From a virus, in IMG/VR virus record IMGVR_UViG_3300035698_004085, positions 1-64,000 of that record: 64,000 bases of DNA. One strand, given 5' to 3'. Position numbers and translations under genes: made by a program. The notes under the pieces are model-generated. The model was not told the DNA's origin and ran no database searches. It was given only the letters and a program-made list of their open reading frames with translations. Of the stretch, positions 7,330 through 30,659 are shown piece after piece (position 1 is the first letter of the stretch; every line of letters begins with the position of its first letter).

Positions 7330-7341
7330 TATATTACTATT

Positions 7342-8388
7342 ATGGAATCTGAATTTATAAAACAGATGTATGATAGTCATTCTTCGGAAGAAGTTTATGA
7401 CGAGGATGATTGTTTTTTGGTAGGAGACGGCAATAAGTCTTTGTTAAGAGCCAGGAAGACTTCAAATAATTCTAATCAACTTACGGGGATAAGATCGGTT
7501 AAGGATTTGAAGGCTGCTAATGGTAAGTGCGTAGAGGAGTCTACTACTGAGGATGATTTATCAGAGTTTAGTGGTGAGTCTTTTGAGTGTGAGTTTGAGG
7601 AGTATTACTATGAGATAAAGAGAAAGGTGTTTGACAGGTTTGGATATGTGGAGATAAAGTCTCAGCAGTTTTCTGGTCGTCCTATTCGTGAGAGAGATTT
7701 AGTGTTATCAGAGGATGATCGTTATTTGGTTAATTATCTTATTTCTCAGGGGGTCATAGACAATTATTTGTTTGATTCTTTGGCACAGTTGAGTGCTTTG
7801 TTGGAGATGGGGTTTTCAAAGGTCCGGTTTAATCAGAGGGATGGTTGTGCATTGTGTTTGGCTCATGATGGTTTATCTTATGATATAAAGACATTGATTT
7901 CTTTATTAGGATCTGGGAAGTATCTTGTTCATGAGTTTTGCGAATGTTATTATATTCCTATTATAGAAGATCGTAAAGCGGTTAAGGTGAAGGTTGATGA
8001 GCCAGAGGTTTGTGTAGCTGATACTGTTATAAAGAATTTGCCTATTGAGTTTCTGGATGAGATTTATTTATTGTTATCTGGTATGCAGGAGGTTGGGCTT
8101 AGTTATTCAGAGATTTCTTTTTCAGATTTTATGGACGTTGAGAAGTGGGACCACGAGGTTGTTAAGCAGGTTGGTGATACTCTTTGTGTTCATTCTATGT
8201 ATTTAGGAGATAAATCTCCTATTGATTATCTTCGGGCATGGGTAATAGCTGAGTCAAAGACTTTGGAAGATTATTCAGACGTTGATATTTCTGAATTAGA
8301 TGTTTATTATTTGAATGGAAAAAAAGTAGTAGAAATTGATGGTTTCTATATAGACGTAGAGACTAAGAAAGTAGTTGAGGGTATATAA
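7342..8388 (+). CDS. Possible MuF-like head morphogenesis protein
   Basis: 348 residues, acidic. The only recognisable signature lies at about residues 165-205: CALC followed closely by HDG, then HEFCEC about 25 residues later. This CxxC...DG...HxxCxC layout is that of the C-terminal domain of Mu gpF/SPP1 gp7 minor head proteins, which are usually encoded directly after the portal, as here. The rest is unrecognised and rich in Asp, Glu and Ser. The start lacks a clear Shine-Dalgarno sequence and follows the portal stop by 12 bases, so translation may be coupled. The assignment is tentative. Confidence 0.45.
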   Translation: MESEFIKQMYDSHSSEEVYDEDDCFLVGDGNKSLLRARKTSNNSNQLTGIRSVKDLKAANGKCVEESTTEDDLSEFSGESFECEFEEYYYEIKRKVFDRFGYVEIKSQQFSGRPIRERDLVLSEDDRYLVNYLISQGVIDNYLFDSLAQLSALLEMGFSKVRFNQRDGCALCLAHDGLSYDIKTLISLLGSGKYLVHEFCECYYIPIIEDRKAVKVKVDEPEVCVADTVIKNLPIEFLDEIYLLLSGMQEVGLSYSEISFSDFMDVEKWDHEVVKQVGDTLCVHSMYLGDKSPIDYLRAWVIAESKTLEDYSDVDISELDVYYLNGKKVVEIDGFYIDVETKKVVEGI

Positions 8389-8389
8389 G

Positions 8390-8503
8390 ATGAAGAAGAC
8401 AGGTGGAGACGGACATGTTGTAGGACCGGTTATTGATTTGAAGGAAGAGAAGGCTAAGAAGGAGTCTTTGAAGAAAGCCCAGGAAGCTAATAAAGAAAAA
8501 TAG
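8390..8503 (+). CDS. Small Lys-rich ORF, 37 residues
   Basis: ATG at 8390 overlaps nothing and follows the previous stop by one base; TAG at 8501-8503 is followed two bases later by the next ATG. The product begins MKKTGGDGHVVGPVIDLKEE and is strongly Lys/Glu-rich. The tight packing between two genes supports a real coding unit. Function unknown. Confidence 0.5.
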   Translation: MKKTGGDGHVVGPVIDLKEEKAKKESLKKAQEANKEK

Positions 8504-8505
8504 TT

Positions 8506-8823
8506 ATGAATTATTATTCTATAAAGGGACCTAAAGGTCCTGTTGCTGTAGTGTTTCATGATTATTTATCTCTTCAATATGTTATTAATTCTAAGTCTGA
8601 GTCATTTAGAATAGCGTTTGAGTCAGCTGTTAAGTCTGTTGGCGATGTAGCGTTTAAGAAGGTTAAGAATGTTTTGAAGGTATCTAAGTTTGGTCCAGGT
8701 TATGTAGGCTGGTTGCCAGCTGTTGTTGATAAAGTTTGTGGTGATTATTGGATTGTTGATGATAGTGGTGAAGTTTACGGAGATGTCTATTCAGAGGACA
8801 TTGCGAAGTCTTATCTATCCTAA
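8506..8823 (+). CDS. Hypothetical protein, 105 residues
   Basis: Small globular-looking protein starting MNYYSIKGPKGPVAVVFHD, with a central basic segment (FKKVKNVLKVSKFG) and an acidic end. No family recognised. It closes the portal transcription block, since a new promoter candidate follows at 8867. The beta-rich C-terminal part (YWIVDDSGEVYGDVY) could be a small SH3-like barrel, but that is a guess. Confidence 0.6.
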   Translation: MNYYSIKGPKGPVAVVFHDYLSLQYVINSKSESFRIAFESAVKSVGDVAFKKVKNVLKVSKFGPGYVGWLPAVVDKVCGDYWIVDDSGEVYGDVYSEDIAKSYLS

Positions 8824-8866
8824 TTCTTTCATTTTTCTAAAACTAATATAGTTTAGCTTTAAACCC

Positions 8867-8889
8867 CCGACATATTATTGACTTATAAT
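8867..8889 (+). promoter_or_regulatory. Late-type promoter candidate P2 for protease-scaffold-capsid operon
   Basis: TTTAAA, three bases, CCGACA (8867-8872), 11 bases, TATAAT (8884-8889). A perfect 10-base palindrome TTGTATACAA (8889-8898) lies at the expected transcription start. Confidence 0.55.
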
Positions 8890-8923
8890 TGTATACAACT
8901 TGCATAAGGGAGATCCTTTTTAC

Positions 8924-9844
8924 ATGGCATTTAAGAAAGTTTCGTCACTAGAGATTTTAGGAGTTTTATCTCAAGGTCAAACGACTTGGAATAAGACTGC
9001 TGCTTCTCGAACGACTTCTCATTATATGGAGAACAAGTTAGCGATTAACTTGGAAGAGCGTTTAGATGTTGTGGCTGATACTTATAAGATTAGTAGAGAT
9101 GCGAGTGATTATCTTTTGATTCCTGCTAGGGCTAATAGCATTGGTAGGTATAATGCTAATATGGATGGTTGGGAGTTTGATGAGATTCATAGCTTCCGTC
9201 CTACTTTGGGTCTTAGAACCTATTCAACTTACGTTAATAAGCCTCACTTTGTAGAGCATAATGCGACTGAACCTAGTGTTGCTCGTGGATTTATTTTAGA
9301 TGCTCATTTAAATTTGTCTAATGAAGCTGATGAGCTTGTTAAGCAGGCTGTTATGCAGACGATAGGGATTGAGCCTAAGACGGATGCATTTGTAGAAGTT
9401 ATTTTGGCAGTTGACCAGACTAAAGATCCGGTGTTAGCCAAGGCTTATAAGTCTGGAGCTATTAAGACTTTTTCGATGGGTGCTGATGTTGAAGATACTG
9501 TTTGCAATGTTTGTGGAAATGTAGCGACTACTACTTTTGAGTTTTGTTCTTGTGTTGTTTCTAAGTATGCTCGAATGCCTGTCAGAATGGAAGACGGGAC
9601 TATTCGGGTAGCAACTGAGTTGTGCAGGGGTACAGTTTTTCAAGAGTTGTCTGCTGTTGCTGATCCTGCTGATAAGAGTGCCGTGATACAGGATGGTATT
9701 TTAGAGATAGCAAAGGCTGCTTCTATATCAATTACTGCAAATGACTTACAAGAGATTGTTTCTTTTACGGCAAAATACGCTAACGAGATTACGGAATCGG
9801 TAGCTAAAGTTTTTCTTCAATCACTTACAAATAAAGGACTGTAG
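8924..9844 (+). CDS. Prohead maturation serine protease
   Basis: 306 residues from ATG 8924, chosen because AAGGGAG lies 11 bases upstream; the longer TTG start at 8900 would place that site inside the gene. The protein shows the head-protease pattern: His near residue 112 (FVEHNATEP), a beta-strand with AVDQTKDP, Ser about 184 in the FSMG motif, then a Cys cluster (CNVCG at 194-198, CSC at 208-210) and FQELSAVADPA. It lies before scaffold and capsid genes, where such proteases cleave scaffold and the capsid N-terminus during maturation. The Cys cluster could bind zinc. The catalytic assignment is by motif only. Confidence 0.8.
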   Translation: MAFKKVSSLEILGVLSQGQTTWNKTAASRTTSHYMENKLAINLEERLDVVADTYKISRDASDYLLIPARANSIGRYNANMDGWEFDEIHSFRPTLGLRTYSTYVNKPHFVEHNATEPSVARGFILDAHLNLSNEADELVKQAVMQTIGIEPKTDAFVEVILAVDQTKDPVLAKAYKSGAIKTFSMGADVEDTVCNVCGNVATTTFEFCSCVVSKYARMPVRMEDGTIRVATELCRGTVFQELSAVADPADKSAVIQDGILEIAKAASISITANDLQEIVSFTAKYANEITESVAKVFLQSLTNKGL

Positions 9845-9846
9845 CA

Positions 9847-11691
9847 ATGAAAAACAAAGTTAAGTTGTTTGAGACGGTTCTTGGGATTCACGCTAAGGGC
9901 GCAGCTCACTTGTCGGCTAGTGAAAGGTCAACGATTGAGACTGAGACGCAGGAATTGCTTCGTGGTGCTGGTCATAAATTAGCTGCAAAGGCTCCAGAAG
10001 GATTTGATAAACTGTTATCAGAGCTTACTTCTGCTGAGAATGCAGATGACGCTTACGAAATGGTTGTTGGTTTCTTGAAATCGCAAGACGGAATTGACGG
10101 TGGTGATCCTAAAGAAGATGCTCCAATGGACAAGCCTAAAGAGGATTTAATGGATTCTCCAATGGGAGATCCTAAAGAAGATGCCCCAATGGGCGCTCCG
10201 ATGGATAAGCCTAAAGACAAGCCAATGGGCGACGAGAAGTCTGATGACAAACCTAAAGACAAGATGGAAGACAAGCCTTCTGATGAGAAGCCTTCTGATG
10301 AGAAGCCTGAAGACAAGCCTAAGGATAAGATGGAAGACAAGCCTAAGGACAAGTCAATTGGTGATAAAGGTAAGGGCGACAAGGGCAAAGGCGACAAGCT
10401 AATGGACCTTGAAAAAGAGAAGAAAGACATCTTGGCTAGAGCGCGAGCTGCTGGTGATGAAGTTAAAGAAGACATGGCGAAATTGAAAGAAGATAAGGAC
10501 AAGCCTAAGGACAAAGACAAAGATAAAGAGGATGCTCCGATTTCTTCTGAGTCAATGGGCATTAAAGATCCTAAGACTGCTAATAAGGTAACTGTGAAAG
10601 TTACTTCAAGTCGTAATCTGTTGGTTTCATTTGACGGCAAGCCTTTGTTCCATGCGATTCCCAATGTAGAGACTAAAGCTAGTGTATCTTCTTTGAAGAG
10701 ACTTGCTAATAAAGTTTATGGATGGGTTGTTTATGAGGGTGCTGTTGCTGCTGCTACTAAGTGCGGAGCTAAGATCTTGGCTGGAGCTGACGATGACATT
10801 TCTGTTCCTTTTGATGCTGATTTAGGACCTGAGACTTCTCCAGTAACGGAAGACGCTGACGATGTTTTGGCTGATAGTCAAGAGACTCCTGCTAAGTCTA
10901 TTACAGATGATGCTGAATTTGTTTCAGATGAAACCTATGATAAAGTTAATGCTGCTGTAACAGATGATGCTGACGATGTAGTGTCTGAGGCTGTAGAGAC
11001 GCCTTCTAGTGACGTTACTGACGGGCATGAGGATGTGTTAGACGAAGAGCTAGAGACGCCTGCCAACGATACTCAGTCGGATGCTGAGGTTGATTTTAAG
11101 TCTGCTGAGGCTAGCTATAAGCAGCTGTATGCTTCAAGAGCTAAAAAAGAGTCTATTGATCTCAATAAGGCTTTTGTTACTAAATTTATTCGAGCTATTA
11201 AGGTTGCTGCTACCAGGATGAGTCTGAATCATGACGACAATCCTTATAAAGCAGCTTCTATTGATGTTTTAACCTCTGATAATGTGTCTTTCTCAGATGG
11301 TTCCGTTTTAGAGGGATTAGATGAGTCTGCTGCTTCAGAGTTAACTGAGCTAATTGCTAGTGAAGGTCATGAGCCTTTCATTACTCAACTGCTCACAAGG
11401 ACTTCCTCATTGATGAAGAAGTCAGATGAATACTTAGAAGATTTGGAGAGTGACTTGGGAGATCTTAATGTGACTCCTGTAGAAGTTGCACCTGCCAAAT
11501 CTGGTACTAAGAGACGTTCAAGCAAGAGTGAGAAGGTTCGCAAGGCTGCGTCCGATGGAAACTTTGCTTTAACTAATAATCGAGCGCGAGTTACCCGCAC
11601 TCAAAACGAAAACAATGTAGGTGGTCTTCGAGCCGTTATCGGTGACACCCCGCTTTCAAAACTAAGTAAAGTTTTGGCAGGGTCAAGATAA
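9847..11691 (+). CDS. Scaffold/prohead core protein
   Basis: 614 residues between protease and capsid genes, the usual place for a scaffold. Residues about 80-235 are an extreme Lys/Asp/Pro low-complexity region made of repeated KPKDK, DKMEDKPK and DAPM units. A second acidic repeat region (about 320-430) has recurring TDDADDV and ETP motifs. The N-terminal 75 residues and C-terminal 150 residues look ordered and helical; the C-terminus is basic (RRSSKSEKVRK), as expected for capsid-binding scaffold ends. It is likely cut by the protease and lost from mature heads. The role is inferred from position and composition. Confidence 0.65.
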   Translation: MKNKVKLFETVLGIHAKGAAHLSASERSTIETETQELLRGAGHKLAAKAPEGFDKLLSELTSAENADDAYEMVVGFLKSQDGIDGGDPKEDAPMDKPKEDLMDSPMGDPKEDAPMGAPMDKPKDKPMGDEKSDDKPKDKMEDKPSDEKPSDEKPEDKPKDKMEDKPKDKSIGDKGKGDKGKGDKLMDLEKEKKDILARARAAGDEVKEDMAKLKEDKDKPKDKDKDKEDAPISSESMGIKDPKTANKVTVKVTSSRNLLVSFDGKPLFHAIPNVETKASVSSLKRLANKVYGWVVYEGAVAAATKCGAKILAGADDDISVPFDADLGPETSPVTEDADDVLADSQETPAKSITDDAEFVSDETYDKVNAAVTDDADDVVSEAVETPSSDVTDGHEDVLDEELETPANDTQSDAEVDFKSAEASYKQLYASRAKKESIDLNKAFVTKFIRAIKVAATRMSLNHDDNPYKAASIDVLTSDNVSFSDGSVLEGLDESAASELTELIASEGHEPFITQLLTRTSSLMKKSDEYLEDLESDLGDLNVTPVEVAPAKSGTKRRSSKSEKVRKAASDGNFALTNNRARVTRTQNENNVGGLRAVIGDTPLSKLSKVLAGSR

Positions 11692-11721
11692 CAGTAAGGA
11701 AACCCAGACAAGGAGTCTGAA

Positions 11722-12483
11722 ATGAGTCTTAGTACAAGAAGAGAAGCATTTCGTGTAGACACTGTAGCGCGTGGTATTGACCACCTGCGGACCCAGTACA
11801 CCACAGCATATGGCGATTACGTTGCAAATGCAACTACTACGTTCGATGCCGGTCAACTGGTGGACCTAAACAGTGATAGCGAAATTATTCAATCAGTTGG
11901 TGCCGCACCATTTGGTTGGACGCGATATAACAAGAACACTGGGTTCTATGGTTCTGTCGTTGGTGAGTACATTCAACTGAATGCACTAGCTGATACTAGC
12001 CTAGCGCATGCTAACGTTAGAGCAGCAGCTGGTGGGTTGCTTGGTGTTCGCGTTGCAGCAGCACTTACTGGTGCGGCTTATGCGGAAGCAACTGATTATA
12101 CAGTTACTTATGCTAGTGGTCTTATCAAGCGTCAAGTGGCACCCGGCGGAACTATCCCAGATGGTGGATACGTCTACGTTACTTATCAGTATACGCTGAC
12201 AGCTCTTGAGCTTGCTGATGATGGTCACAACTTCTGGAATCTAGACGACGACATTACTATTCAAGGTGGAAAAGTAACTGTCATTACTGGTCCCGCAACT
12301 ATTTACACAACTGCTTATGACCCAAGTATTACTTATTCTATCAATGATGCATTGACCGCAGGAACGACTGCTGAATTGCTAGCTGGAATGGTAACTGTGG
12401 GTGGAGCTGGCTTGGCTATTGGGTTTGTTATTCAGATTCCAACGCCTGCTGATCCTTTCCTTGGCATTAAGTACAGCGGCTAA
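11722..12483 (+). CDS. Candidate capsid decoration protein
   Basis: 253 residues, Ala/Gly/Thr/Tyr-rich and beta-strand-rich, starting MSLSTRREAFRVDTVARGID. AAGGAG lies 9 bases before the ATG. It sits between scaffold and major capsid genes, where head decoration or stabilising proteins are common. Short features such as VGEYIQLNALAD and LGIKY at the end recall decoration proteins of other phages, but I do not recognise a named family. Other options are a head fibre or a second capsid subunit. Confidence 0.5.
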   Translation: MSLSTRREAFRVDTVARGIDHLRTQYTTAYGDYVANATTTFDAGQLVDLNSDSEIIQSVGAAPFGWTRYNKNTGFYGSVVGEYIQLNALADTSLAHANVRAAAGGLLGVRVAAALTGAAYAEATDYTVTYASGLIKRQVAPGGTIPDGGYVYVTYQYTLTALELADDGHNFWNLDDDITIQGGKVTVITGPATIYTTAYDPSITYSINDALTAGTTAELLAGMVTVGGAGLAIGFVIQIPTPADPFLGIKYSG

Positions 12484-12497
12484 TAGGAGGCTTTAAA

Positions 12498-13706
12498 ATG
12501 AAAAAGAATAATCCTTATCGTAAGCTTGCAAAACGAGCTACTAAGCCTGCTGCTTCTAAAAAAGCACCTCGTAGGCTAGCTGCTCGTCCGAAGACTCGGC
12601 TGCAATCTAAGAATGATGAACAACTGTTTGACGAGAGTGGTGCGTTTAACCCTCAGTCCTACGACCGTAAATCTTCACGGGGCGCGTCTGCAGGTAAAAG
12701 TAACCGTCGCATGTTTAATGCTAGTGGTGAGATTAATGCTCATGACAAGCGTGATGCGCTAACACAAATTTATCAGCTCTTAGGTAATGTTACTAAGAAG
12801 AATGCTGGTAGTTTGTCTTTCCACAACGCTGATGAGCCTTCTATTAGTGTTGACGAAAAGCGTCAGATTATGGCTGCTGCTCTTCGTGATCCTTCTGGTG
12901 CTGGATTCCATCAAGTAGGTCAAGAGCTTGCTCTCCCTATTAAGGTTATCCTTGACTATGAAGGTTTTGCTCGTAAACTGTTTAGGGTTCGCAAGCTAGG
13001 TCAAGCCGAGCTTTTCCGGGTACCCAAAGACATCCGTTCGGTTGCTTATATTATTGGTCAAGATGGTCAGACTCCTGAAGCTCGCATCAAGACTAAGTAT
13101 ATCACTCCTGAAGAGTTCAAGGTAACGTCCTTCCCGTCTATTGACATCCAGGACATCTATCAAATGAACTTCGACGTTTTGGAGCGTGCGCAAGATACGG
13201 CACGTCAAGAGATCGAACTCCAAGAAGACAAAGCTGGTATCAATATTCTGGATCGCGCTGCGACTACCATTAATAACGTTACTACTTTTGCTTCTCTGGG
13301 TGTTGGCGCTTTTGAAGACGTTCGCTATCAGGTTGAGCAACATCGTCTCCTGGTTGAGAATTTCTGGATTGCTCGTGCAGAGCTTTCTGACATCGTTAAG
13401 AATATGTCAACTGCGGTTGATCCTGTAACTGAGCGTGAGTTGATTCTCAGTGGTTACATTGGCAATATCCTTAATGCTCAGATTATGACTGCTGCTGGTA
13501 CAGGCGTTGAAGAAGTTATTCCTGCGGGGACCTTCTATGCGACTACCGGAAGTGATTATCTTGGTGAGATGGGTGAGCGAATTAGTCTCTTCTCCGAGCC
13601 TTACAATAAGTACAACCAACAGGAAACTGTTAAGGGTTGGGCGTTCGTAGAAATGATTGGTTTCGTTATTCCTAACTCCAAGGCAGCTGCTAAGGGTATG
13701 AAATAA
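12498..13706 (+). CDS. Major capsid protein
   Basis: 402 residues with an Arg/Lys-rich N-terminus (about 1-40) that may be removed by the prohead protease. Residues about 135-400 read like an HK97-fold capsid protein, with an extended strand region (YITPEEFKV), a long spine helix (FDVLERAQDTARQEIELQED) and a P-domain ending in GWAFVEMIGFVIPN. The preceding scaffold and protease and the following strong terminator fit the most heavily expressed head gene. The Shine-Dalgarno sequence is AGGAGG, 9 bases before ATG. Confidence 0.85.
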   Translation: MKKNNPYRKLAKRATKPAASKKAPRRLAARPKTRLQSKNDEQLFDESGAFNPQSYDRKSSRGASAGKSNRRMFNASGEINAHDKRDALTQIYQLLGNVTKKNAGSLSFHNADEPSISVDEKRQIMAAALRDPSGAGFHQVGQELALPIKVILDYEGFARKLFRVRKLGQAELFRVPKDIRSVAYIIGQDGQTPEARIKTKYITPEEFKVTSFPSIDIQDIYQMNFDVLERAQDTARQEIELQEDKAGINILDRAATTINNVTTFASLGVGAFEDVRYQVEQHRLLVENFWIARAELSDIVKNMSTAVDPVTERELILSGYIGNILNAQIMTAAGTGVEEVIPAGTFYATTGSDYLGEMGERISLFSEPYNKYNQQETVKGWAFVEMIGFVIPNSKAAAKGMK

Positions 13707-13718
13707 TTAAGTCTTATT

Positions 13719-13776
13719 AAGTAAAGGGGTTGGGTGAGTTTCCCTCCTTTCTCTCACCCTTCCCTTTACTTTTTTA
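13719..13776 (+). terminator. Rho-independent terminator after capsid gene
   Basis: A long inverted repeat: AGTAAAGGG-gtt-GGGTGAG (13720-13738) pairs with CTCACCC-tt-CCCTTTACT (13753-13770), with a pyrimidine-rich loop and a run of T residues at 13770-13775. It is the clearest terminator in the window and ends the protease-scaffold-capsid transcript. Confidence 0.85.
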
Positions 13777-13827
13777 TTTAACCCCTTGACTAATACTGGT
13801 TAAGGGAGTTCAGCGAAAGCTGGGGAT

Positions 13828-14688
13828 ATGTCTAAAGAGAAAAATATTCCGGTCTTAGATCTCAGTGATCATTTTCTCTCATATACTTCTCCTGCTAAAG
13901 CTAGGCTTTTGATTAAGTCTGGAAGAGCTTTCGCGTTTAGCAAAGACCCCTTCATGATTAAAATGAGGGGAGAAGTGGAAGAGAACGCAATGAAAAGAAC
14001 TGTATCAAATCAACGAAGAGCCGTAGTCACAAACTTTACTAAATACTTTCAAAAAGAGCGTGAAGTATATGTGCAAAATATGGGTTCAACTCAGATCTCT
14101 CTAGCTTTTAAATTGGATGGTCAGGATACTTATATTCTGATTCCTAGAACTCGTAAGCCTTATAATCTTACTCAACATGTTCCTTTTATGGCTATTAAAA
14201 ACTCTACTGATTTCAGAGCTATTATTAACCGGAGAAATCCCCCGATTCTAAAGCTGATTGAAGAAGAGGAATTCCTTGAGTATTATGATAGATTAGCTGC
14301 TAGAAACTCTACTACGTTTGAGGAAGAGCTGTCAAAAGCTGAAGAGGCTCAATATGGTCTAATGGACAAGCGAGTTGTCGGTACTGAGAGAATAGCTCGT
14401 GAGATGGAGCAACAGCTTGAGAAGAAGATGGATGAATTAGAGAAGCCTGATTCAACTCATCCTCAAATAGTTGGTTTTTGTGCGAAAGCTGATAAAGAGT
14501 ATATGCCAAGGTTAAAGGCTGAAGACTTTATTGAAGAGTTAGAGGCTCTAGAGCACGAATTGTCTCCAGAAGACTGGGAATTCGTCTCTACAAAGGGTGT
14601 ATATAAGACTGTAAAGAACTTTGCTGCTAAGAAACTAGATGTTCTTACCTCGTCTGAAGAAGATGATGATCCCAACGCTGATCTCTAA
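13828..14688 (+). CDS. Head/neck-region protein with IscB-like (RRXRR/PLMP) N-terminal motif
   Basis: 286 residues. Residues about 8-45 read VLDLSDHFLSYTSPAKARLL then KSGRAFAFSKDPFMIKM, closely matching the N-terminal segment of IscB/RRXRR proteins (pattern: Pro-Ala-x-Ala-Arg-x-Leu-Leu-x-x-Gly-Lys/Arg-Ala, then Pro-Phe-x-Ile-x-Leu/Met). No RuvC or HNH residues follow, so it is not a nuclease of that type. The middle (FTKYFQKEREVYVQNMG) looks like a beta-rich structural domain and residues 165-240 form a charged coiled coil; the end is very acidic. Position after the capsid suggests a virion or head-completion role. A weak promoter-like CTTGAC is at 13785-13790. Confidence 0.55.
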   Translation: MSKEKNIPVLDLSDHFLSYTSPAKARLLIKSGRAFAFSKDPFMIKMRGEVEENAMKRTVSNQRRAVVTNFTKYFQKEREVYVQNMGSTQISLAFKLDGQDTYILIPRTRKPYNLTQHVPFMAIKNSTDFRAIINRRNPPILKLIEEEEFLEYYDRLAARNSTTFEEELSKAEEAQYGLMDKRVVGTERIAREMEQQLEKKMDELEKPDSTHPQIVGFCAKADKEYMPRLKAEDFIEELEALEHELSPEDWEFVSTKGVYKTVKNFAAKKLDVLTSSEEDDDPNADL

Positions 14689-20664: not shown

Positions 20665-23154
20665 ATGCCTCTTGGAATTACTGAATATGTGCCACCGGGC
20701 ACCTACGTTAAACAAAATTTACAGCCGGGTTCAGTTTCTGTCTCTTCAGAACGTATTTTAGGCATTGTTGCAACTGCTCCAAGATCTCGTAGGTCTTCAG
20801 ACGAGGCGGTTACTCGTGGTAAAATATATGATGAGACGCTTACCCTAGCTGTTTCTACTCCTTATATTGCTACATTATCTGTTCCTAGTAATAGGGATCG
20901 TAATAGTGCAATTCTTTATCGTAATGATAATGCAATGGCTCTTGGAAATTGGAGTTTTAATTCTGCTGCTTTGATTGGTGATGCTTGGGCTGGAGCGGAT
21001 ATTGATGTTTCTTCAGGTACGGGAACCGCTCAATACCTTACTGTTTCTTTGGACGGTATTGTTCCTGTAACTATTGACTTGGATGCTGCGGTAACTGCGG
21101 TTGGTGGTACTACTAATGCGGCGACTGGTTTAATTATTGCTGCAGCTATCAACTATGACTTAGGAGATGCTGCTGGCGATCATTATGCTACTTACGGAGC
21201 TGCTTATGCGGCTGTAGCTTCTAGTGCCGTTCCGCTTACTCCAACTATTACGATTACTTCTCCTTTGACGACTTCTGCTTCTGACGTTAAAGTATTCCTC
21301 TCTGAATTGACTGCCAAGGACGGGGCTTCGGAGGTATCTAATACTGGGTGGGCACCTACTGCTGGCGTAGGAGTTCAGGCTGATACTATAGTGACTGTTG
21401 TGGATGCTTATTACGGCTCTACTGATACTTACACTATTGAGTACGTTTCAATCGAAAATATGGTTGATGCTCTTCTTTTGGCTGACTCAACTGATCCTCT
21501 TATCAGCTTAATTAGGGCTGGTTCTTTCCCCGGCTCAGAGTCTTATCTTCTGAATACCGATTTTGAGAAGACTAGTAATACTGTTGATTGGGCTACTTCT
21601 TCTTGGGCGCAAGCGATTGTTACGAGCGTTGATGGAACGTTTGCAATTGTTGTTTCTGTTAATGACGAAGTTAGATTAGGCATTAATGGCTTAGACCCAA
21701 TTACTGTTTCAATAGCTGCAAGTGCAACTCAATCTGCTGCTGTTATTGCTGCGGCTATTAATGCAGCTTTAGCTGCGAGTGTTCTTTACGGTCCTGCTTA
21801 TGCTCATGTTGCTACTGTTGATGGGTTGACTGTTGTGCTAACTGCTCCAAGTGCTTTTGCTAATTATCCTACTGCAAGGGGTTATTCAAGCACTGTTGAG
21901 CTGTTTACTTCTACTGATACTGCGGTTACTACTATTTTTGGTATTGCTTCTGGATCACTTCCTTATGAAGCGCGTGGTACTGGCGAGCGTCCTGCCTTTG
22001 GATCTGTGTATTACTCTACTTATGATTATACTAGACCAGATGCTGATTATCTATTGCCTACTAGGGTTTATACTTTGGAGCAATTGTCTGACTTTACTTC
22101 ACCTCCTACTATTGAGAATTATACGGTGAATCGTCTTTACATTGCTGGTGACATTGCTTTCGAGAATGGTGCTCCTTCTCTCTGGGTAGTTCCGATTGAT
22201 GACTCTACTGTTTCTGGCACGCCTACTCCAACTCAGGTTAACTCTGCGATTGATGTTTGTGAAGAGAAGTCTGGTATTACCGATATAGTGGTTATTGACA
22301 CTGCAGTTGCTCAGCATGTTCACCTAATGAATCACGTAGCTAATATGAGTTCTCTAATTAATAAGAAGTATCGGCGCGGTTGGTTTGGAATGGCTCGAAG
22401 CACTTCAGTTGGAGATCCTGATACGCCTGATACGTTTGTTTACCGGTCACAGAGGACTCTCCAGCCTGGGAATACTTCTCCAGGGCGTGGACGGCTAATC
22501 CTTTGTGCTCCTTCTGAGGCTTCTAGGGTTCTTACTTTGGATGATAAGTCTGAAGTAACCTTAGAGCTAGACGGTTCTTATATTGCGGTTGCTGACGCTT
22601 CTGTGATGACCGCTTTACCAAGTCCGTCTGACGCACTGTTGGGTAAGCAAATTGTAGGATTCTTAACCGATGATACTTTTGAGACTTACCTAACGGGTGA
22701 GAATAAGACTCTTGCCTCAAACGGCGTTAATGTAAATACGTTGGATGCTGGTTTGATTAAGATGACTGATCCTCTGACTACTGAGTCTGCTGGTTCAGTT
22801 GAGTTCCAAGAGCCTTCTTCATCTGCTCAAAAAGATGTTGTTACTCGTTCAATCGAGACTTTGGTTGATGGAAATCTTAAGGGTATTGTTCCTGACGACT
22901 TGGCTGACTTCATTGTTGATATTAAAACTTGGGTATCCTTGGGTATTAAAGCTAATATTAACTCTGGCGTTATTGCTCCATATAGAACTTCTACGGGCGC
23001 ATCTAGAGATATTAATCTAATGACTGACATAGATGCTTATCAGGATGAGGATGACCCTCGGTCATTCGTGTTCAAATATTGGTACAACCTGAAATACGTA
23101 GCTAAGAGATTCTTTGGTGAATACAGTGTGGATAATCCGTTCTTCGCGGGTTAA
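20665..23154 (+). CDS. Contractile tail sheath protein
   Basis: 829 residues. The start (ITEYVPPGTYVKQ) has the PG-[T/V]-Y motif common at sheath N-termini, and the C-terminal block (FKYWYNLKYVAKRFFGEYSVD) is the conserved sheath end that links subunits. Residues about 100-250 and 310-430 are two copies of an inserted beta-rich module sharing AAIN...YG.AYA.VA with a baseplate protein at 38873. The sheath contracts to drive the tube through the envelope, so this defines the phage as a myovirus. AAGGAG precedes the ATG. The tube genes follow. Confidence 0.85.
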   Translation: MPLGITEYVPPGTYVKQNLQPGSVSVSSERILGIVATAPRSRRSSDEAVTRGKIYDETLTLAVSTPYIATLSVPSNRDRNSAILYRNDNAMALGNWSFNSAALIGDAWAGADIDVSSGTGTAQYLTVSLDGIVPVTIDLDAAVTAVGGTTNAATGLIIAAAINYDLGDAAGDHYATYGAAYAAVASSAVPLTPTITITSPLTTSASDVKVFLSELTAKDGASEVSNTGWAPTAGVGVQADTIVTVVDAYYGSTDTYTIEYVSIENMVDALLLADSTDPLISLIRAGSFPGSESYLLNTDFEKTSNTVDWATSSWAQAIVTSVDGTFAIVVSVNDEVRLGINGLDPITVSIAASATQSAAVIAAAINAALAASVLYGPAYAHVATVDGLTVVLTAPSAFANYPTARGYSSTVELFTSTDTAVTTIFGIASGSLPYEARGTGERPAFGSVYYSTYDYTRPDADYLLPTRVYTLEQLSDFTSPPTIENYTVNRLYIAGDIAFENGAPSLWVVPIDDSTVSGTPTPTQVNSAIDVCEEKSGITDIVVIDTAVAQHVHLMNHVANMSSLINKKYRRGWFGMARSTSVGDPDTPDTFVYRSQRTLQPGNTSPGRGRLILCAPSEASRVLTLDDKSEVTLELDGSYIAVADASVMTALPSPSDALLGKQIVGFLTDDTFETYLTGENKTLASNGVNVNTLDAGLIKMTDPLTTESAGSVEFQEPSSSAQKDVVTRSIETLVDGNLKGIVPDDLADFIVDIKTWVSLGIKANINSGVIAPYRTSTGASRDINLMTDIDAYQDEDDPRSFVFKYWYNLKYVAKRFFGEYSVDNPFFAG

Positions 23155-23175: not shown

Positions 23176-23625
23176 ATGACTGTTCCTAATACTTCAACCC
23201 GGATGGACCATGCGATCTCTATTAGGGTTGATGGTACCACTATTGGTCAGATACAAGACTGGACTCCGCAGCAGAACCGTACTGTTACGCCTGTTTACGA
23301 GTTAAAGTCAGCCACTTCAGGAGAGCCTATTGAGAATGCTCCTGGAAATCTTGGTGGGCTAACTATCGGTATTACTCGATATGACCTATACAATAAAAAG
23401 ATGGAGCAGGTTTGGGGATCTAGCTTTACTATGCAGATGCTAAGTGATCAAACTTCTGCTCTTCAAATTCAAGAGAAGTGGTCTAATCCTACGGGAACCG
23501 CTGAGACTTGGGTTTATACAGGTTGTTGGTTTACTTCATTGGGTAGAAATCATTCGGCTAATGGAGATCGTATTACTAAGGTTAATGCTTCTCTTATGTA
23601 TGTCAAGAAGTATCAAGTAACTTAG
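23176..23625 (+). CDS. Tail tube protein 1
   Basis: 149 residues directly after the sheath. The product has the tube-protein layout: RMDHAISIRVDG, a beta-barrel core with GLTIGITRYDLY, and a closing segment GDRITKVNASLMYVKKY. It is clearly paralogous to the next gene (many identical stretches including YTGCWFTS and HSANGDRITKVNASLMY). Hexamers of such proteins stack to form the inner tube. AAGGAG lies before the ATG. Confidence 0.75.
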   Translation: MTVPNTSTRMDHAISIRVDGTTIGQIQDWTPQQNRTVTPVYELKSATSGEPIENAPGNLGGLTIGITRYDLYNKKMEQVWGSSFTMQMLSDQTSALQIQEKWSNPTGTAETWVYTGCWFTSLGRNHSANGDRITKVNASLMYVKKYQVT

Positions 23626-23653: not shown

Positions 23654-24244
23654 ATGGGCGTTCAGTCTGACTTTAAAAAAGCATATAATGAAGTTTTTGA
23701 CTGGACTCTTCCTAATAATAAGTATAAGGGTCCTGAGACTTCGGTTAGAATGGACCATGCTGTGTCTATTCGGTCTTCAGGTGCTACTATTGGAATGATT
23801 CAGGAGTGGTCACCTCAACAAAGTAGAAACGTTACTCCTATTTATGAGATTAACGCAGCTGCTTTAGGCAAACCTTCTGAGAGTATTCCTTCTATTTTAA
23901 CTGGTTTATCCATTAGTATTTCTAGATATGACTTATACGCTTCTAGGATGGAGAATGTTTGGGGAGCTGGATTAACGGTACAAGTGCTTACTGACCAGAC
24001 TAACCCATTTACTATTAATGAGCGCTGGGATAATCCGAATGGTTCAGTTGAGATGTGGACTTATACAGGTTGCTGGTTTACTTCTGTAGGTCGAACGCAT
24101 AGTGCTAATGGAGATCGTATTACAAAGGTTAATGCGAGTTTAATGTATACGGATAAGCACCAGATTTCTAGCAGTAAGATTGCTAGTCAAGAGCAGGCTG
24201 CGTGGGCAGCTAATAAGATTACTAATGAGGTTGCTAGCTGGTAA
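23654..24244 (+). CDS. Tail tube protein 2, extended paralogue
   Basis: 196 residues. The core matches tube protein 1, but there is an extra N-terminal segment of about 30 residues (FKKAYNEVFDWTLPNNKY) and a C-terminal helix of about 25 residues (EQAAWAANKITNEVASW). The extra parts could mark a specialised ring at the tube end or a baseplate-proximal or terminator-proximal layer. Tandem duplication is the simplest origin. Confidence 0.7.
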   Translation: MGVQSDFKKAYNEVFDWTLPNNKYKGPETSVRMDHAVSIRSSGATIGMIQEWSPQQSRNVTPIYEINAAALGKPSESIPSILTGLSISISRYDLYASRMENVWGAGLTVQVLTDQTNPFTINERWDNPNGSVEMWTYTGCWFTSVGRTHSANGDRITKVNASLMYTDKHQISSSKIASQEQAAWAANKITNEVASW

Positions 24245-24357: not shown

Positions 24358-24846
24358 GTGTCTAAGGAAACTAAATTCGATATTTTAGCAGATCTCCAAA
24401 CAGAGTTAAGTGGTCAATTTCTTCAAGATGATTTTGAAGTTCAAGGACGGACTTTTACTATGCGTCTTCTGAATGAGGAGGAAAATGCGTGGACTTATAG
24501 CGGTTTGCTTGCTGGAGGAGACAGCACAATCTCTTTAGCAATGTCTGCCCGTATTGCAAACTTGGCAATCGGCATTCGATCTATTAATGATGCGACTATT
24601 GGTGAGATGTTTGAATCCAAGTTTAATGATCTTCCTGAGTCTGAGCAGAGAGAACTAGCTGCAAATAAGCCTATTCACTTTGCTTATGCTGGGCTATTTT
24701 TAAGATGGCTTGCAGTGCAGCCTCCTGAGTTTATCACTGAGTTGGTTGATAAATGGCAGGAATTGGAATCACGTAAAAAAGACGCAATGGGTGAAATAAA
24801 AAACTCATCAGGGGAGAGTTCGGACTCGGAAGAGAAGAAGAGCTAG
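24358..24846 (+). CDS. Tail assembly chaperone, short form (lambda G-like)
   Basis: 162 residues from GTG 24358, with AAGGA seven bases upstream. Helical and acidic, with FEVQGRTFTMRLLNEEE at the start. It lies between tail tube and tape measure genes, the place of the lambda G/GT pair. At 24798-24804 the sequence A AAA AAC is in the correct frame for a -1 shift; most ribosomes would stop at TAG 24844-24846, giving this short form. The chaperone coats the tape measure during tail assembly. The leader at 24245-24357 holds two small hairpins (24286-24302 and 24319-24342), otherwise nothing. Confidence 0.75.
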   Translation: MSKETKFDILADLQTELSGQFLQDDFEVQGRTFTMRLLNEEENAWTYSGLLAGGDSTISLAMSARIANLAIGIRSINDATIGEMFESKFNDLPESEQRELAANKPIHFAYAGLFLRWLAVQPPEFITELVDKWQELESRKKDAMGEIKNSSGESSDSEEKKS

Positions 24847-24861
24847 ATAAAGCTCTCCCCT
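24798..24861 (+). promoter_or_regulatory. Programmed -1 ribosomal frameshift signal
   Basis: Slippery heptamer A AAA AAC at 24798-24804 (zero frame ends in AAA AAC), a six-base spacer, then an 8-bp perfect stem GGGGAGAG (24811-24818) with CTCTCCCC (24853-24860), extendable to about 11 bp with one G-U pair. The zero-frame stop at 24844-24846 lies in the loop. These are the three standard parts of a bacterial -1 frameshift site. Confidence 0.85.
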
Positions 24862-25532
24862 TTTGGCGATCTATTGCGTCAAAGCTGAGGATTAAGTCTG
24901 AGGTTTTGGCTAAGAAGAATGTGTTGATGAGTGACCCGTCTGTACAGTTAATGACGGATACTCAATGGCTCTTTGAATTAGAAAGTTTGTCTTTGCAGAC
25001 TGAGCGTAAGTATGAAGAGATTGGATCTTTTACTAAGTTAGTTCAGGATGGGTTGATTAACTTATTGGGTCTTAACCTTATGCCGGTACCTGAGGTTATC
25101 CCTGAGGAAGAAGGCGGTGGGTTGGACGAAGAGGGTGAGCCAATAACTAGGTTACGAAGAGCTGAAGAGGGTGAGATAGTACCTCTTGCGATGTTGATAG
25201 GCAGTCCTGAGGTTATATCAGAGGTGGTTAAGCAGAATCAGGAACTGTATAGTCAATTGGAGTTAGACGAGAAGGAGGAGCAAGGAGAGATCGTTCATAG
25301 GACGCCTGAAGAACTTGATGAGTTTTTTGAGGATGATATTGAGTTTCCTGATAATCCTGAAGACTTTAGAAAGAGTCTTATTTGGAATTCTGAGGAGACG
25401 CAGAATACTCTTAAACATCTTGTTAAGCCTCTGGAGAAAGAGCCTTTGGAGAAAGAGCCTGAAGAGGGTGCTGTTGTTCTTCAAAGCCCTAGAAAGCGTT
25501 CACGAGTGACGATAGATCATGCCAGCCGATAA
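24804..25532 (+). CDS. Tail assembly chaperone, frameshift extension (lambda T-like)
   Basis: The -1 frame is open from 24795 to 25532. After slippage at 24804 it encodes 242 residues, so the fused protein would be about 391 residues (149 + 242). The junction-proximal peptide ELDKALPFWRSIASKLRIKS is plausible coding sequence lying upstream of any good start codon, which supports fusion instead of a separate gene; the TTG at 24906 has no good Shine-Dalgarno sequence. The C-terminal part is acidic with repeated EKEPLEKEP. It overlaps the tape measure start by 14 bases. In the lambda model, T domains contact the tape measure. Confidence 0.75.
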   Translation, partial: LIRGEFGLGREEELDKALPFWRSIASKLRIKSEVLAKKNVLMSDPSVQLMTDTQWLFELESLSLQTERKYEEIGSFTKLVQDGLINLLGLNLMPVPEVIPEEEGGGLDEEGEPITRLRRAEEGEIVPLAMLIGSPEVISEVVKQNQELYSQLELDEKEEQGEIVHRTPEELDEFFEDDIEFPDNPEDFRKSLIWNSEETQNTLKHLVKPLEKEPLEKEPEEGAVVLQSPRKRSRVTIDHASR

Positions 25533-27873
25533 TTACATACTCAGTTTTGATTTTGCTGAGATTACTCGCCAAATTTCTAATTTGCAGCAGTCTTATGTTG
25601 ACTTAGCTAAGACACAAGCAGATCATGCTTCAAAATCCCGCCAAGAGCTAGACTTAATCGAAGAGCAAGTTTCTCGCATTACTTCGTCTTTGGACAATTC
25701 CTTTCAAAATCTGGATAAGTATTATACCGGTCTTTTTGGAAAACTAGAAACAACGATTGACTATTTTAAAAACTTAGAAACGTATTCAAAAAACGTTACT
25801 GAGAATTTAAAGAGTCTGAATAATGTTGATCTAGCTAACTTGGGTAAGTCTGGCGGAGAGACTATAAGTGAGAGGCTTGCTGAGGTTTCCCCAGGTGAGG
25901 GTCCTGGCGATTTTATGTCGATGGACATGTCTATAAGAGCTGGTTCTGCTGATGCGGCTGAGGGTGCACTAGCTAAAGCTGAGGCTGCTATTAAGGCTGC
26001 GAAAGAGGCTGTTATTGAAGCGAATAAAGCCAAGGGAATAATGGCTAAGACTTCTGAGGCGATGTCCAAGAAAATTCAGCAGGAGTTAAAAAACGCTAAA
26101 CGAAAAGTAGGAGGTATGTTTTCGGGAGCTACTGGTGGAGCTTTAGCTGGCGGCGGTATGGCGGGTATGATTGGCTTGATTCTATTAGGAACGCAGGAAA
26201 GCCAACGTAAGGGGGCAGAAGCCTCTGAGATGTTCAACGTTCTAGCTGCTGGAGGAGATGTTTTTGACAAGGAGACTAAGAGGGCTTCTAAGTGGTTTGC
26301 TAGGTTTGGGGAACATGCTCAAGCGAAGATGGGGATCGGGCGTAAGGCAATTCAAGGGTTGAATAAGCAGCTTATTGATATTGGTCTTAAGGGAAAAGAT
26401 TTATTAAAAGACTACGGAAAAGAGGTTGATGACGTTAGTGCGAGCGTGACATCAACCACGTTGGCTCTGGACCTTATGTTCCAAAAAGGAATAGGGTCTT
26501 CGATGACGGACGTTACTACTCTTGTAAAAGATTATGGAGACGAGTTAGGTGAAGCTACTGAGAAGTACAAAAGGTTAAATTTTGAAGCTCAGAGATCTGA
26601 AATAGGGGTTGGTAGATTTGTTGGAGCGGTAATGGAAGGTACGGCTGCTCTTTCTCAATACGGCATTGAGATGGAAGATACTACTGAAGTTATGCGGACA
26701 ATGGTTGGTTACTATAAGGAGATGGGTTTAGACAAGGAAGTAGCCGGTACGTTTGCGGGTGAGGCGACTAAAGGGTTGATGCAAGGGGTTGGAAATATGT
26801 CTTTTGGCATGACGGCTCAAATTGCTCAGACTATGAGGCAAGACCAAGGGTTGCCGGTGATGGATGCTCTGGGAGCTAGGCAGTGGTTTAAAGAGGGAGC
26901 ACAGCGTGTTTCTGAAGGTGAGGATACAGGGTTTAGCGTAAGAGCTATTAAGGCAATTCATAAGTTTATTACTAATCGCGTAGGGGGCGGTAGACCTGCT
27001 CAAATTATGTTTGCTGAGCAAGAGATGGGAATGGAGAATGCTCCAGCTGCGGCGTTTATTGATAGGGCTGGGAAGTTGGCGGCGGGCGTAAAGATAGACG
27101 AGTTAACCCCTGAGGAACAGAAGGCTCATAAGAAACAGTTCGAGAGACAGAGTGATACGCTTACTGATCTTCAAAAGAATCAATATGACTTAATCCAGAG
27201 TTTGGCTAAGATAGGTTCTGGTCTTATAAAGATTTTAACTAGTATTTTAGGAGTTCTTATTGCTGGTATTCAAGGGTTGCCTATTCTTATTACTGCTGCT
27301 ATTAAGATGCTTACCGGAGATGCTGAAGAAAAGCAAGCTGGAAGAGATGAGATAAAGCTGTATAAAGCTGTTATGGAGGCACAGGTTGATACTTTTACGT
27401 CTGGAGCTAGTGATATATGGGAAGGAACAAAGGGGGCAGGTGGAGTACTCATGGATGCTTTTTCTGGGGTTCCTAGCTTGAAAAAAGCTATGGATATGAA
27501 AAGTTCATGGGGGGATATGGGCAATCTTATTGCGGATAAGGTAGAAGCGGGATTAGCTCCAGTGAAACAGGGGCTTATTGACGTGCAGATGTCTTTAGCT
27601 AATTTTATTGGGCTTAGCGATGACGCTAAACACAGGATACGAACGGATAACATAGATCGAGGTCCTGTTGGATCGCTGCATCCTAGTTTTCAAAAGACTA
27701 TGGACGCTCACGGGTTAAGTCTTGGTAGCTCTGGCAAGCCTAAATCCTCTAACCGGAGTTCTTCAGCTGGGGATGCAGCTCCTAGACATACTTTTTTGCC
27801 AGCTAAAACAGAGATACCTGCTGAGCATATAAATAAAGTTGTATCTATTTTAAAAGAGAAGACGCTTAAATAA
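25519..27873 (+). CDS. Tape measure-like protein 1
   Basis: 784 residues. N-terminal coiled coil (about 1-100), an Ala/Lys-rich helix (about 150-190), a hydrophobic Gly-rich stretch (GGALAGGGMAGMIGLILLG at about 205-225), a long helical middle, a second hydrophobic block near residues 570-600 (ILGVLIAGIQGLPILITAAI) and a flexible Ser/Gly/Pro-rich end. This is typical for tape measure proteins, which set tail length and leave through the tube. It follows the frameshifting chaperone, as expected, and shares its plan with the next gene. Confidence 0.7.
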   Translation: MPADNYILSFDFAEITRQISNLQQSYVDLAKTQADHASKSRQELDLIEEQVSRITSSLDNSFQNLDKYYTGLFGKLETTIDYFKNLETYSKNVTENLKSLNNVDLANLGKSGGETISERLAEVSPGEGPGDFMSMDMSIRAGSADAAEGALAKAEAAIKAAKEAVIEANKAKGIMAKTSEAMSKKIQQELKNAKRKVGGMFSGATGGALAGGGMAGMIGLILLGTQESQRKGAEASEMFNVLAAGGDVFDKETKRASKWFARFGEHAQAKMGIGRKAIQGLNKQLIDIGLKGKDLLKDYGKEVDDVSASVTSTTLALDLMFQKGIGSSMTDVTTLVKDYGDELGEATEKYKRLNFEAQRSEIGVGRFVGAVMEGTAALSQYGIEMEDTTEVMRTMVGYYKEMGLDKEVAGTFAGEATKGLMQGVGNMSFGMTAQIAQTMRQDQGLPVMDALGARQWFKEGAQRVSEGEDTGFSVRAIKAIHKFITNRVGGGRPAQIMFAEQEMGMENAPAAAFIDRAGKLAAGVKIDELTPEEQKAHKKQFERQSDTLTDLQKNQYDLIQSLAKIGSGLIKILTSILGVLIAGIQGLPILITAAIKMLTGDAEEKQAGRDEIKLYKAVMEAQVDTFTSGASDIWEGTKGAGGVLMDAFSGVPSLKKAMDMKSSWGDMGNLIADKVEAGLAPVKQGLIDVQMSLANFIGLSDDAKHRIRTDNIDRGPVGSLHPSFQKTMDAHGLSLGSSGKPKSSNRSSSAGDAAPRHTFLPAKTEIPAEHINKVVSILKEKTLK

Positions 27874-30659
27874 TGATTATTGACCTTCAAAAATTGGAAG
27901 AGATTAAGCATCAGTTTGCTGAGTTGGGCAGAACTGTTTCTGATGTTTCTTCTAGTACTGAAGCGTCTTCTAAGGTTGCTTTATTAGCTGTTAACGAGCT
28001 TCAAGAGGCTATTTTTAGTGCAATTAACTTTGAGCAGCTAGGTAAGGTGGCTGATTCAGTTAATGAGATTGCTGACTACGCTGAGGATTTTTCAAATATA
28101 GTTGATTCTTTAACTGAGAGTTTTTCAGGATTTGATGCTTTTAGCGACGCACTGGGGGAAGCGTCGGTTAAGTTTTCTAAGGTCGCTGCTGACCTTGATG
28201 ACCTCTATAATAAGAAAGGTCCTGTAGACTCGGCAGGGATGCCTGGAAAGAAGAAGAGTGCTAAAAAGACAAGAATGCCTAAGATGCTTAAGAAAGAGCT
28301 TTCAGGCGTCAAGGGTAAAGCCGGATCGCTTCTGAGTACTCTTAAGATTCCCAAGCCTGGAATGATTGCTGCTGGTCTTTTGGGATTAATGGCTTATGGA
28401 GTTAAGGAGCAGCAAAGAGTCGCTGCTGAAGCTGGAGAGGTCAGGAACATACTGATCACAACCTATGACGGGTTGTCTAAAGACATTGTTAGTAAGGGCA
28501 CTAGTTATATATCTTCATTTCAAGAGCACTTACAAAAAGCTTATGGTATTGCTAAAGGAGAAGTTCAAGATGTAGCAAAAACATTTGCTAAGGCGGGAAT
28601 TAGTATTGAGGAGATGCTTCAAGGCGTTGATAAGGAGTTAGGGCTAGTTGGGAAATCCTATATCTCGTTTACGCTAGGCGTTGATAAGATGCTTGAGCTG
28701 GCTGGCGGGTCTACGGCTCAGAAGATGGTAGACTATGCTAATAAGTATGGAATGAGTTTTAAGGAGTCTAAAGCTACTATTATGCGTATGGTAGATTTGG
28801 GGCAGCAGTCCGGTATTGGAACTATGCAGTTTATGAAAAATATTGAGACTGCAGGAGACGCTTTAGGAAAGTTAGGATTTAAATTGTCGTCGGTTATAGA
28901 TTTGGCGACAACTTTACAAGAGTCTTTTGAGAAAATAGGCGTTCCTAAACATTTGGCTGGTAAGCAAACCGCCGTAGGGCTTCAACAGATGGCTCAGGGT
29001 CTTTCTCAGATGTCTGATGGTTGGAAGGCTCTAATGGGGGAAGAACTAGGCTATGGCAGCGGTCTAGAAGCCGTACAAGGGTTTAATGAGCGGTTTCTGG
29101 AGTTGTCTAAAGGTGGAGAGAGCGGAGCTGAGGATTTTGATAAGTTTTTAACTACTATTGTTGATAGAGTTGGCACAGCCGTTGGTGGAGATGAAGTTAG
29201 GCAACGTTCTATTTTAGAAAAAGACTTGGGCATGGGTTTTGAAGGTGCAATGATTGCGACTAGACTTGTGAAGGCTATTAAAGCTGGAGATAAAAATAAG
29301 GCTAAAGAGCTTAGAAAGGAGCTAAAGAAGGAGATAAAGAATTCTTTTGAGACTGAGAAAGAAAAGAGAAAAGCTTGGGAACTCCACATGAATCAGTGGA
29401 TGAAGGCTTTGTCAGAAATAGGGCAAGGTCTTTTAGGTCTTGTGTTAGAGGCGCTTGCTTCAATGATAGCTTATGTAAAGTCCGTTCCTGAGTTGTTTAT
29501 GAATATGCTTGAGGGTGGGAAAAAGGGAGCGTTAGCAAATGAGGCGTTAAGGAAGAAGATTGCTGGAGTTTCTTCAGGAGCGGGGGCACACGCTGCGAAG
29601 ATTAAAAAGGCGTGGAAAAAACTAGGAAAGCACGGTAAATCATTATTAGGAGATGCAATAGGCTCATCGATGGATAACCTGGAAGCTGCTATTAATTTCA
29701 ACCCTTCTGTAACTGCAATTGGTAAGCTAGGTAGTGCTGGTAAGTCTAGCGTTCCTTCGTCTAGGGTGCAGCTGGTCCCTGTAGCAGCCGGTCGAGTTGG
29801 ATCATCAGCGTCGGGCTTTGGCGGATCGCGTTCTAACGCTTCGTCTGTTGCTGGCTCTCAGGTTGCACCATCATTAATTGGCTCGTCGGATGAGGGAGAC
29901 ATAGATAGTGATTGGGAGAGCGAGTCATCGTGGAAAGGCGAGCGTCCTCTTCAGATTGTGTCTCATGGTGTTTCAGATGAGGGTAATATTAGTATTGCTT
30001 TGGTAGGTGACTGTCCAAGGTGTGCGTTAGCTTTTGACGGTGGCAATAACGAAGACATATCTGAAAAAAGTATTAATGCTGGCGGTTCGAGTGACTTAGA
30101 TGTTTTAGCTAAAATGTTGTTTTCAGAGGGAGGTCCTGGGAAAATAAATGCGAGGGGTGGAAGTAAGGAGCTAGCTGGTATTGCCTTTACTGCATTGAAT
30201 AGGAAGAAGTTAAGGGGTAGGCACCAAGGAAAGAGCCTATCAGATATTATTACTAATAAGTTAGGTTATGGTAAGCAGGGTGGTAGAAAAGGTCATAGCA
30301 GGGAGTATGCGACGGCGCGTAAGGTTACTGAAAAAAATAGGGCTGAGTATGATCAGGTAAGGGATCTTGCTGGCGATATTTTAGCAGGAGATGTTGAGAA
30401 TCCTGTAGGAAAAGCTACTATGTTCCTCCATAATACTTTTGGGCAAGGCTATGGATCAAGAAAACATCCTGAAACTCGTAAGGCTCTTGCCCCTTTTGCA
30501 GATCCTAATAAGTCAGATAGTGTAAATACGGAAAATATTAAAACTGCTAGATTCTATGCAGAAAAAGGCAGGGGGAAAGATGCGCCTGAAAGAGGAAGAA
30601 AAGATGCAGCGTATAACGCTAAGTTTAATAAAGTACGTAGCGAAGGTGGATTACGGTAA
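27873..30659 (+). CDS. Tape measure-like protein 2 with C-terminal SleB-like hydrolase
   Basis: 928 residues starting at ATG 27873, overlapping the previous stop (TAATG). Residues about 1-700 resemble tape measure protein 1 in plan: helical start, a Lys-rich region followed by hydrophobic GMIAAGLLGLMAYG, and a long helical core. Residues about 741-905 look like a cell-wall hydrolase of the SleB (Hydrolase_2) type: LAKMLFSEGGP with the likely catalytic Glu, then ELAGIAFTALNR and later ATMFLHNTFGQG. Such ends help cut peptidoglycan during DNA entry. A Ser/Gly-rich linker (about 630-670) joins the two parts. Confidence 0.65.
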   Translation: MIIDLQKLEEIKHQFAELGRTVSDVSSSTEASSKVALLAVNELQEAIFSAINFEQLGKVADSVNEIADYAEDFSNIVDSLTESFSGFDAFSDALGEASVKFSKVAADLDDLYNKKGPVDSAGMPGKKKSAKKTRMPKMLKKELSGVKGKAGSLLSTLKIPKPGMIAAGLLGLMAYGVKEQQRVAAEAGEVRNILITTYDGLSKDIVSKGTSYISSFQEHLQKAYGIAKGEVQDVAKTFAKAGISIEEMLQGVDKELGLVGKSYISFTLGVDKMLELAGGSTAQKMVDYANKYGMSFKESKATIMRMVDLGQQSGIGTMQFMKNIETAGDALGKLGFKLSSVIDLATTLQESFEKIGVPKHLAGKQTAVGLQQMAQGLSQMSDGWKALMGEELGYGSGLEAVQGFNERFLELSKGGESGAEDFDKFLTTIVDRVGTAVGGDEVRQRSILEKDLGMGFEGAMIATRLVKAIKAGDKNKAKELRKELKKEIKNSFETEKEKRKAWELHMNQWMKALSEIGQGLLGLVLEALASMIAYVKSVPELFMNMLEGGKKGALANEALRKKIAGVSSGAGAHAAKIKKAWKKLGKHGKSLLGDAIGSSMDNLEAAINFNPSVTAIGKLGSAGKSSVPSSRVQLVPVAAGRVGSSASGFGGSRSNASSVAGSQVAPSLIGSSDEGDIDSDWESESSWKGERPLQIVSHGVSDEGNISIALVGDCPRCALAFDGGNNEDISEKSINAGGSSDLDVLAKMLFSEGGPGKINARGGSKELAGIAFTALNRKKLRGRHQGKSLSDIITNKLGYGKQGGRKGHSREYATARKVTEKNRAEYDQVRDLAGDILAGDVENPVGKATMFLHNTFGQGYGSRKHPETRKALAPFADPNKSDSVNTENIKTARFYAEKGRGKDAPERGRKDAAYNAKFNKVRSEGGLR

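Follow-up and report, generated by a model that had tools for sequence, protein, structure and literature searches.

What is made from two overlapping open reading frames (ORFs), the second in the -1 frame relative to the first, that stand immediately before a tape-measure-like gene? The question is raised by the window analysed here, a stretch of 64,000 nucleotides that represents the opening 64 kb of a 175,002-base virus record (IMGVR_UViG_3300035698_004085), and in which a first-pass annotation had noted a -1 frameshift signal in tail chaperone genes. A frameshift between genes g and t is widely conserved in long-tailed phages, T4 excepted (PMC5009743). Based on sequence comparison, structure modelling and analogy with phage lambda, we consider it highly probable (roughly 95%) that the heptamer A AAA AAC and a neighbouring hairpin drive a lambda-type -1 frameshift giving a short G and a long GT product. 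The analysis establishes the anatomy of the junction, the frame relation, the conservation of the junction, the covariation of the stem, the homology of the proteins and the fold. Such a slip is a well-known phage trick; the case adds a clear comparative record and not a new principle or mechanism.

Reading frames and the slippery heptamer

All features of the junction lie on the plus strand. The zero-frame ORF (24358-24846) starts with GTG, stops with TAG at 24844-24846 and encodes the G-like protein of 162 residues. Close to its end, it contains the slippery heptamer A AAA AAC (24798-24804), which falls into the X XXY YYZ register when read from GTG 24358 (AT[A AAA AAC]), in the frame that had originally been proposed; the ORF ends 49 nt past the first base of the heptamer. 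In the -1 frame, a closing TGA at 24792-24794 is followed by open sequence from 24795 to 25532, with TTG 24906 as the earliest ATG, GTG or TTG. A computed tandem slip gives a predicted GT of 149 + 242 = 391 residues, and the two product sizes given by the first-pass annotation are thus reproduced.

The window ORFs of at least 100 aa contain about 75 heptamers of the classical type in frame. Only the one at 24798-24804 has an extended open -1 frame behind it (244 codons). The runners-up behind other heptamers have 79 codons on the minus strand and 42 codons on the plus strand. As the sole heptamer of the approximately 75 with a long open -1 frame behind it, A AAA AAC at this position is not a chance occurrence.

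Conservation of the junction and covariation of the hairpin

Relatives were found through the tail sheath gene, and then by alignments of G and T against viral contigs (used as a lone query against the viral contigs, the window G protein gave no match). G homologues were present in 11 loci. After removal of duplicates, nine distinct closer relatives were available in addition to the window (L014-L019, L022, L024 and L025). All nine have the same ORF pair in the same -1 relation. The in-frame heptamer is A AAA AAC in L014, L015 and L017, and A AAA AAA in the remaining six. In two more distant relatives, virus Rctr197k (KX853510) and L013, the same junction carries an in-frame C CCT TTA.

The stem comprises 11 bp (24810-24820 paired with 24851-24861) around a 30-nt loop. 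Its GC-rich core of 8 bp (24811-24818/24853-24860) is extended by a U-G and a U-A pair on the inside and an A-U pair on the outside. According to the sequence, the spacer (24805-24810) measures 6 nt to the 8-bp core, as first described, or 5 nt to the 11-bp stem. An equally strong contiguous stem at the same spacing was found at 6 of 9,108 sampled window positions. Folding energy of the window sequence alone showed a modest gain over shuffles (z -1.8), and a search of Rfam returned no match. The real support for the stem comes from covariation in the relatives rather than from the single-sequence fold.

The junction of the window and the nine relatives could be aligned over 87 columns without gaps. 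A 13-pair stem defined on this ten-sequence alignment was 92% paired, compared to 34-69% when the partners were slid by one to three columns. Changes on both sides of a pair were seen at three stem pairs (8 cells in the ten sequences). None of 500 shuffles equalled the stem in covariation score, share paired or number of two-sided cells; shuffles inflate the significance among related sequences, whereas the slid-column controls preserve the relatedness. RNAalifold independently recovered the same helix from the ten sequences. In L024, a swap from A-U to U-A changes the G protein and keeps the pair, which makes it unlikely that the pairing merely follows from conservation of the protein. The GC-rich stem of 8 bp, or about 11 bp when extended, was therefore correctly recognized in the initial description, and it covaries in the relatives. 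A hairpin with compensatory changes a few nucleotides 3' of the heptamer is what is found in stem-stimulated -1 frameshifting of the dnaX/IS type. By sequence, the hairpin is thus a putative frameshift stimulator, conserved by covariation. No Shine-Dalgarno-like stimulator was conserved 6-17 nt 5' of the heptamer.

The zero-frame stop had been described as part of the signal, located in the loop. This holds for the window, where TAG 24844-24846 sits inside the hairpin loop, and for L014 and L015. It does not hold as a conserved feature, because the stop lies past the stem in the other seven of the ten sequences. A stop in the loop is therefore not necessary to the frameshift signal.

The -1 frame had also been said to encode plausible protein before any usable start, and the relatives bear this out. 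The T frame already encodes conserved protein (KK[LI].RG.FG ... P.WR ... K) in the stretch from the heptamer to the earliest candidate start codon, and approximately 36 conserved residues precede TTG 24906. From the window zero-frame stop to TTG 24906, the T frame is open in all ten sequences, and at least one other frame contains a stop in each of them. Among the T-frame codon positions before the start, the second is the most conserved (0.24 versus 0.42 and 0.45), as predicted for coding sequence, even though these counts are near saturation and weak when taken alone.

Protein identity, gene order and known systems

Searches of Pfam and PHROGs gave no significant match for any of 11 members of the G family or for T, and the proteins are too divergent for these libraries. 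Profile comparison linked T (by hhalign) to the C-terminal part of gp182 of Bacillus phage G (NC_023719; E 1.1e-6, probability 91%) and G to gp181 of the same phage (E 8e-5, probability 61%). Structure modelling used rows from the window and the viral contigs. The structure model of G had a pLDDT of 78 and a pTM of 0.70; the T model was of low confidence (pLDDT 69). Compared to viral models by Foldseek, the G model matched phage G gp181 (E 1.1e-4, prob 1.00). Further viral matches, each with prob 1.00, were phage G gp182, the tail assembly chaperone of Rhodococcus phage Finch, and A0A1P8DIN6, an unnamed protein of 185 aa, which is also the length of Rctr197k gene 069.

Against solved chains (VIA-align 2), the best match of the G model was the HK97 tail assembly chaperone 2ob9 (Z 6.3, rmsd 5.2, 101 aligned), followed by YqbN 3klu (Z 6.1, rmsd 5.9, 104 aligned), which is likewise a chaperone of the tail assembly type. 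Lower matches were 5ir0 (Z 4.1) and others with Z of at most 2.9. Model matches at Z 6 are not conclusive alone, and they are consistent with the remaining evidence. Together, profiles and fold model support the G ORF product as a tail assembly chaperone and a distant homologue of phage G gp181.

The gene order in the window is tail sheath, two tube-like genes, G/GT and tape-measure-like genes, and it is shared with phage G and the relatives. All of these genes are on the plus strand. The sheath gene (20665-23154) matches phage G gp178, annotated 'tail sheath', with an E of 8e-9 and 25% identity, the alignment covering 44% of the query. The two paralogous tube-like genes (23176-23625 and 23654-24244; 62% mutual identity) both match phrog_985, a virion structural protein. 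At the position of phage G gp183 stand two tape-measure-like paralogs in tandem, at 25519-27873 and 27873-30659, which share 28% identity over 433 alignment columns. Tube and tape measure names are based on position and on the phage G annotation rather than on firm family matches. Most relatives inspected carry the tube-like duplication, and a comparable pair is present in phage G. Tape-measure-like copies number two in the window, L007 and L017, apparently three in L003, L016 and L019, and one long gene in phage G.

Phage G carries the homologous G and T parts in gp181 and gp182. Both are annotated as tail assembly chaperone, gp182 as a joined CDS of two pieces, and the corresponding position has the A AAA AAC seen in the window. 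Phage G differs from the window in that the zero-frame stop directly follows the heptamer, a strong or comparable hairpin is absent, and the tape measure is the single gene gp183. In Rctr197k, genes 069 and 070 form a homologous pair at the same place and in the same -1 relation. Here the differences are the C CCT TTA heptamer, a weaker hairpin, and deposition as two separate genes. The C CCT TTA junction of the two genes is at 12426-12492 of KX853510.1. Genes 069 and 070 are probably a G/GT frameshift pair whose join was missed in the public record.

The conserved frameshift of tailed phages is reportedly the subject of work by Xu et al. from 2004. Lambda has a different heptamer, G GGA AAG, and the window phage is also unlike lambda in its contractile tail. 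No sequence similarity of the window G and T to library families was detectable for comparison with lambda gpG and gpGT. What the systems share is a -1 shift, predicted for the window, late in the gene that precedes the tape measure, with one shorter and one longer protein as its products (PMC5009743).

Proposed frameshift, its alternatives and the likely host

Translation of T as a separate protein from TTG 24906 or ATG 24927, without any fusion, would be another way to use the second frame. The candidate start codons are present, and the Rctr197k genes are annotated separately. However, such a start would discard the conserved T-frame residues upstream of TTG 24906, no good ribosome-binding site was found at a usable distance before either codon, and the heptamer and the covarying stem would be left unexplained. 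We regard a separate start as very improbable.

Transcriptional slippage at the A run, rather than a shift of the ribosome, might also give access to the -1 frame, and all ten junctions (the window and nine relatives) do have runs of six or seven A. A run of six is nevertheless short for transcriptional slippage, and Rctr197k and L013 have the same junction with C CCT TTA and no A run. The X XXY YYZ register and the stem spacing also suit the ribosome, leaving the polymerase route with the same very slight probability as a separate T start. Still less credible is a G/T split due to sequencing or assembly error, or to true decay of one gene. The site does contain a homopolymer in a metagenomic contig, but nine distinct relatives and phage G all show the same split, each in a sequence of its own, and this refutes the explanation.

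Taken together, homology to phage G, conservation of frame, heptamer and stem, the G fold and the gene order argue for a lambda-type G/GT frameshift in a phage-G-like, contractile-tailed phage. The first-pass annotation was thus supported in proposing a tail chaperone frameshift, even though the phage would be contractile-tailed and not lambda-like. We infer the occurrence of the shift, its rate and the roles of the products in assembly. Most ribosomes would read 24358-24846 and produce G. A minority would pause at the hairpin (24810-24861), and their tandem tRNAs would slip one base back on A AAA AAC and continue to 25532 to make GT. By analogy with lambda, G might coat the tape measure protein, and tube subunits might be recruited by the T portion of the few GT molecules. 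The slip rate would then set the G:GT ratio required for the tail. Lambda gpG is a binding partner of the tape measure, and the tube protein is bound through the T portion of gpGT; the G:GT products are at about 30:1 (PMC5009743).

As shift sites in E. coli, both A AAA AAC and A AAA AAA fall far short of A AAA AAG (PMC5009743). The weak heptamer counts against a shift, yet low efficiency would fit G/GT. A weak heptamer with help from a hairpin is a plausible route to a low share of GT.

The locus is a clean comparative G/GT case in large phage-G-like contractile-tailed phages, with proteins that public family models do not recognise, and it enables correct naming of the G/GT gene pair in metagenomic phages. 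The relatives, whose homologous junction combines three different heptamers with hairpins ranging from strong to weak, also offer material for a study of slip-site exchange.

The virus record contains a tmRNA gene (tag DEDYYEMAEAA) in L041 (G000:C1:104001-124000; 6209-6564 and 6745-13949, including tRNAs), and phage G likewise carries a tmRNA gene. Four tRNA genes are found on L041 (Asn GTT, Leu CAA, Gln TTG and Ile TAT). A role of the phage-encoded tRNA-Asn(GUU) in decoding AAC at the slip site is unsupported, since an A AAA AAA relative and a C CCT TTA relative also carry tRNA-Asn. In L039, an ORF at 6708-7829 (G000:C1:70708-71829) has an N-terminus, MSYLSIARKYRPDFFGQVFGQ, that resembles the bacterial DnaX clamp loader as judged by eye.

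The tmRNA gene and the DnaX-like ORF make a bacterial host likely. Haloarcula virus HCTV-2, whose g-t frameshift uses the same A AAA AAC (PMC5009743), infects archaea and differs in this respect. An archaeal host was considered because of the methane-oxidising enrichment from which Rctr197k comes and because of a contig in an archaeal metagenome-assembled genome (MAG), and it was rejected in view of the tmRNA gene and the DnaX-like ORF. The contig in question (L028, QMZE01000009.1) is 17,766 bases long and belongs to the same phage group. It is found in a MAG named Archaeoglobales archaeon, into which it was probably mis-binned.
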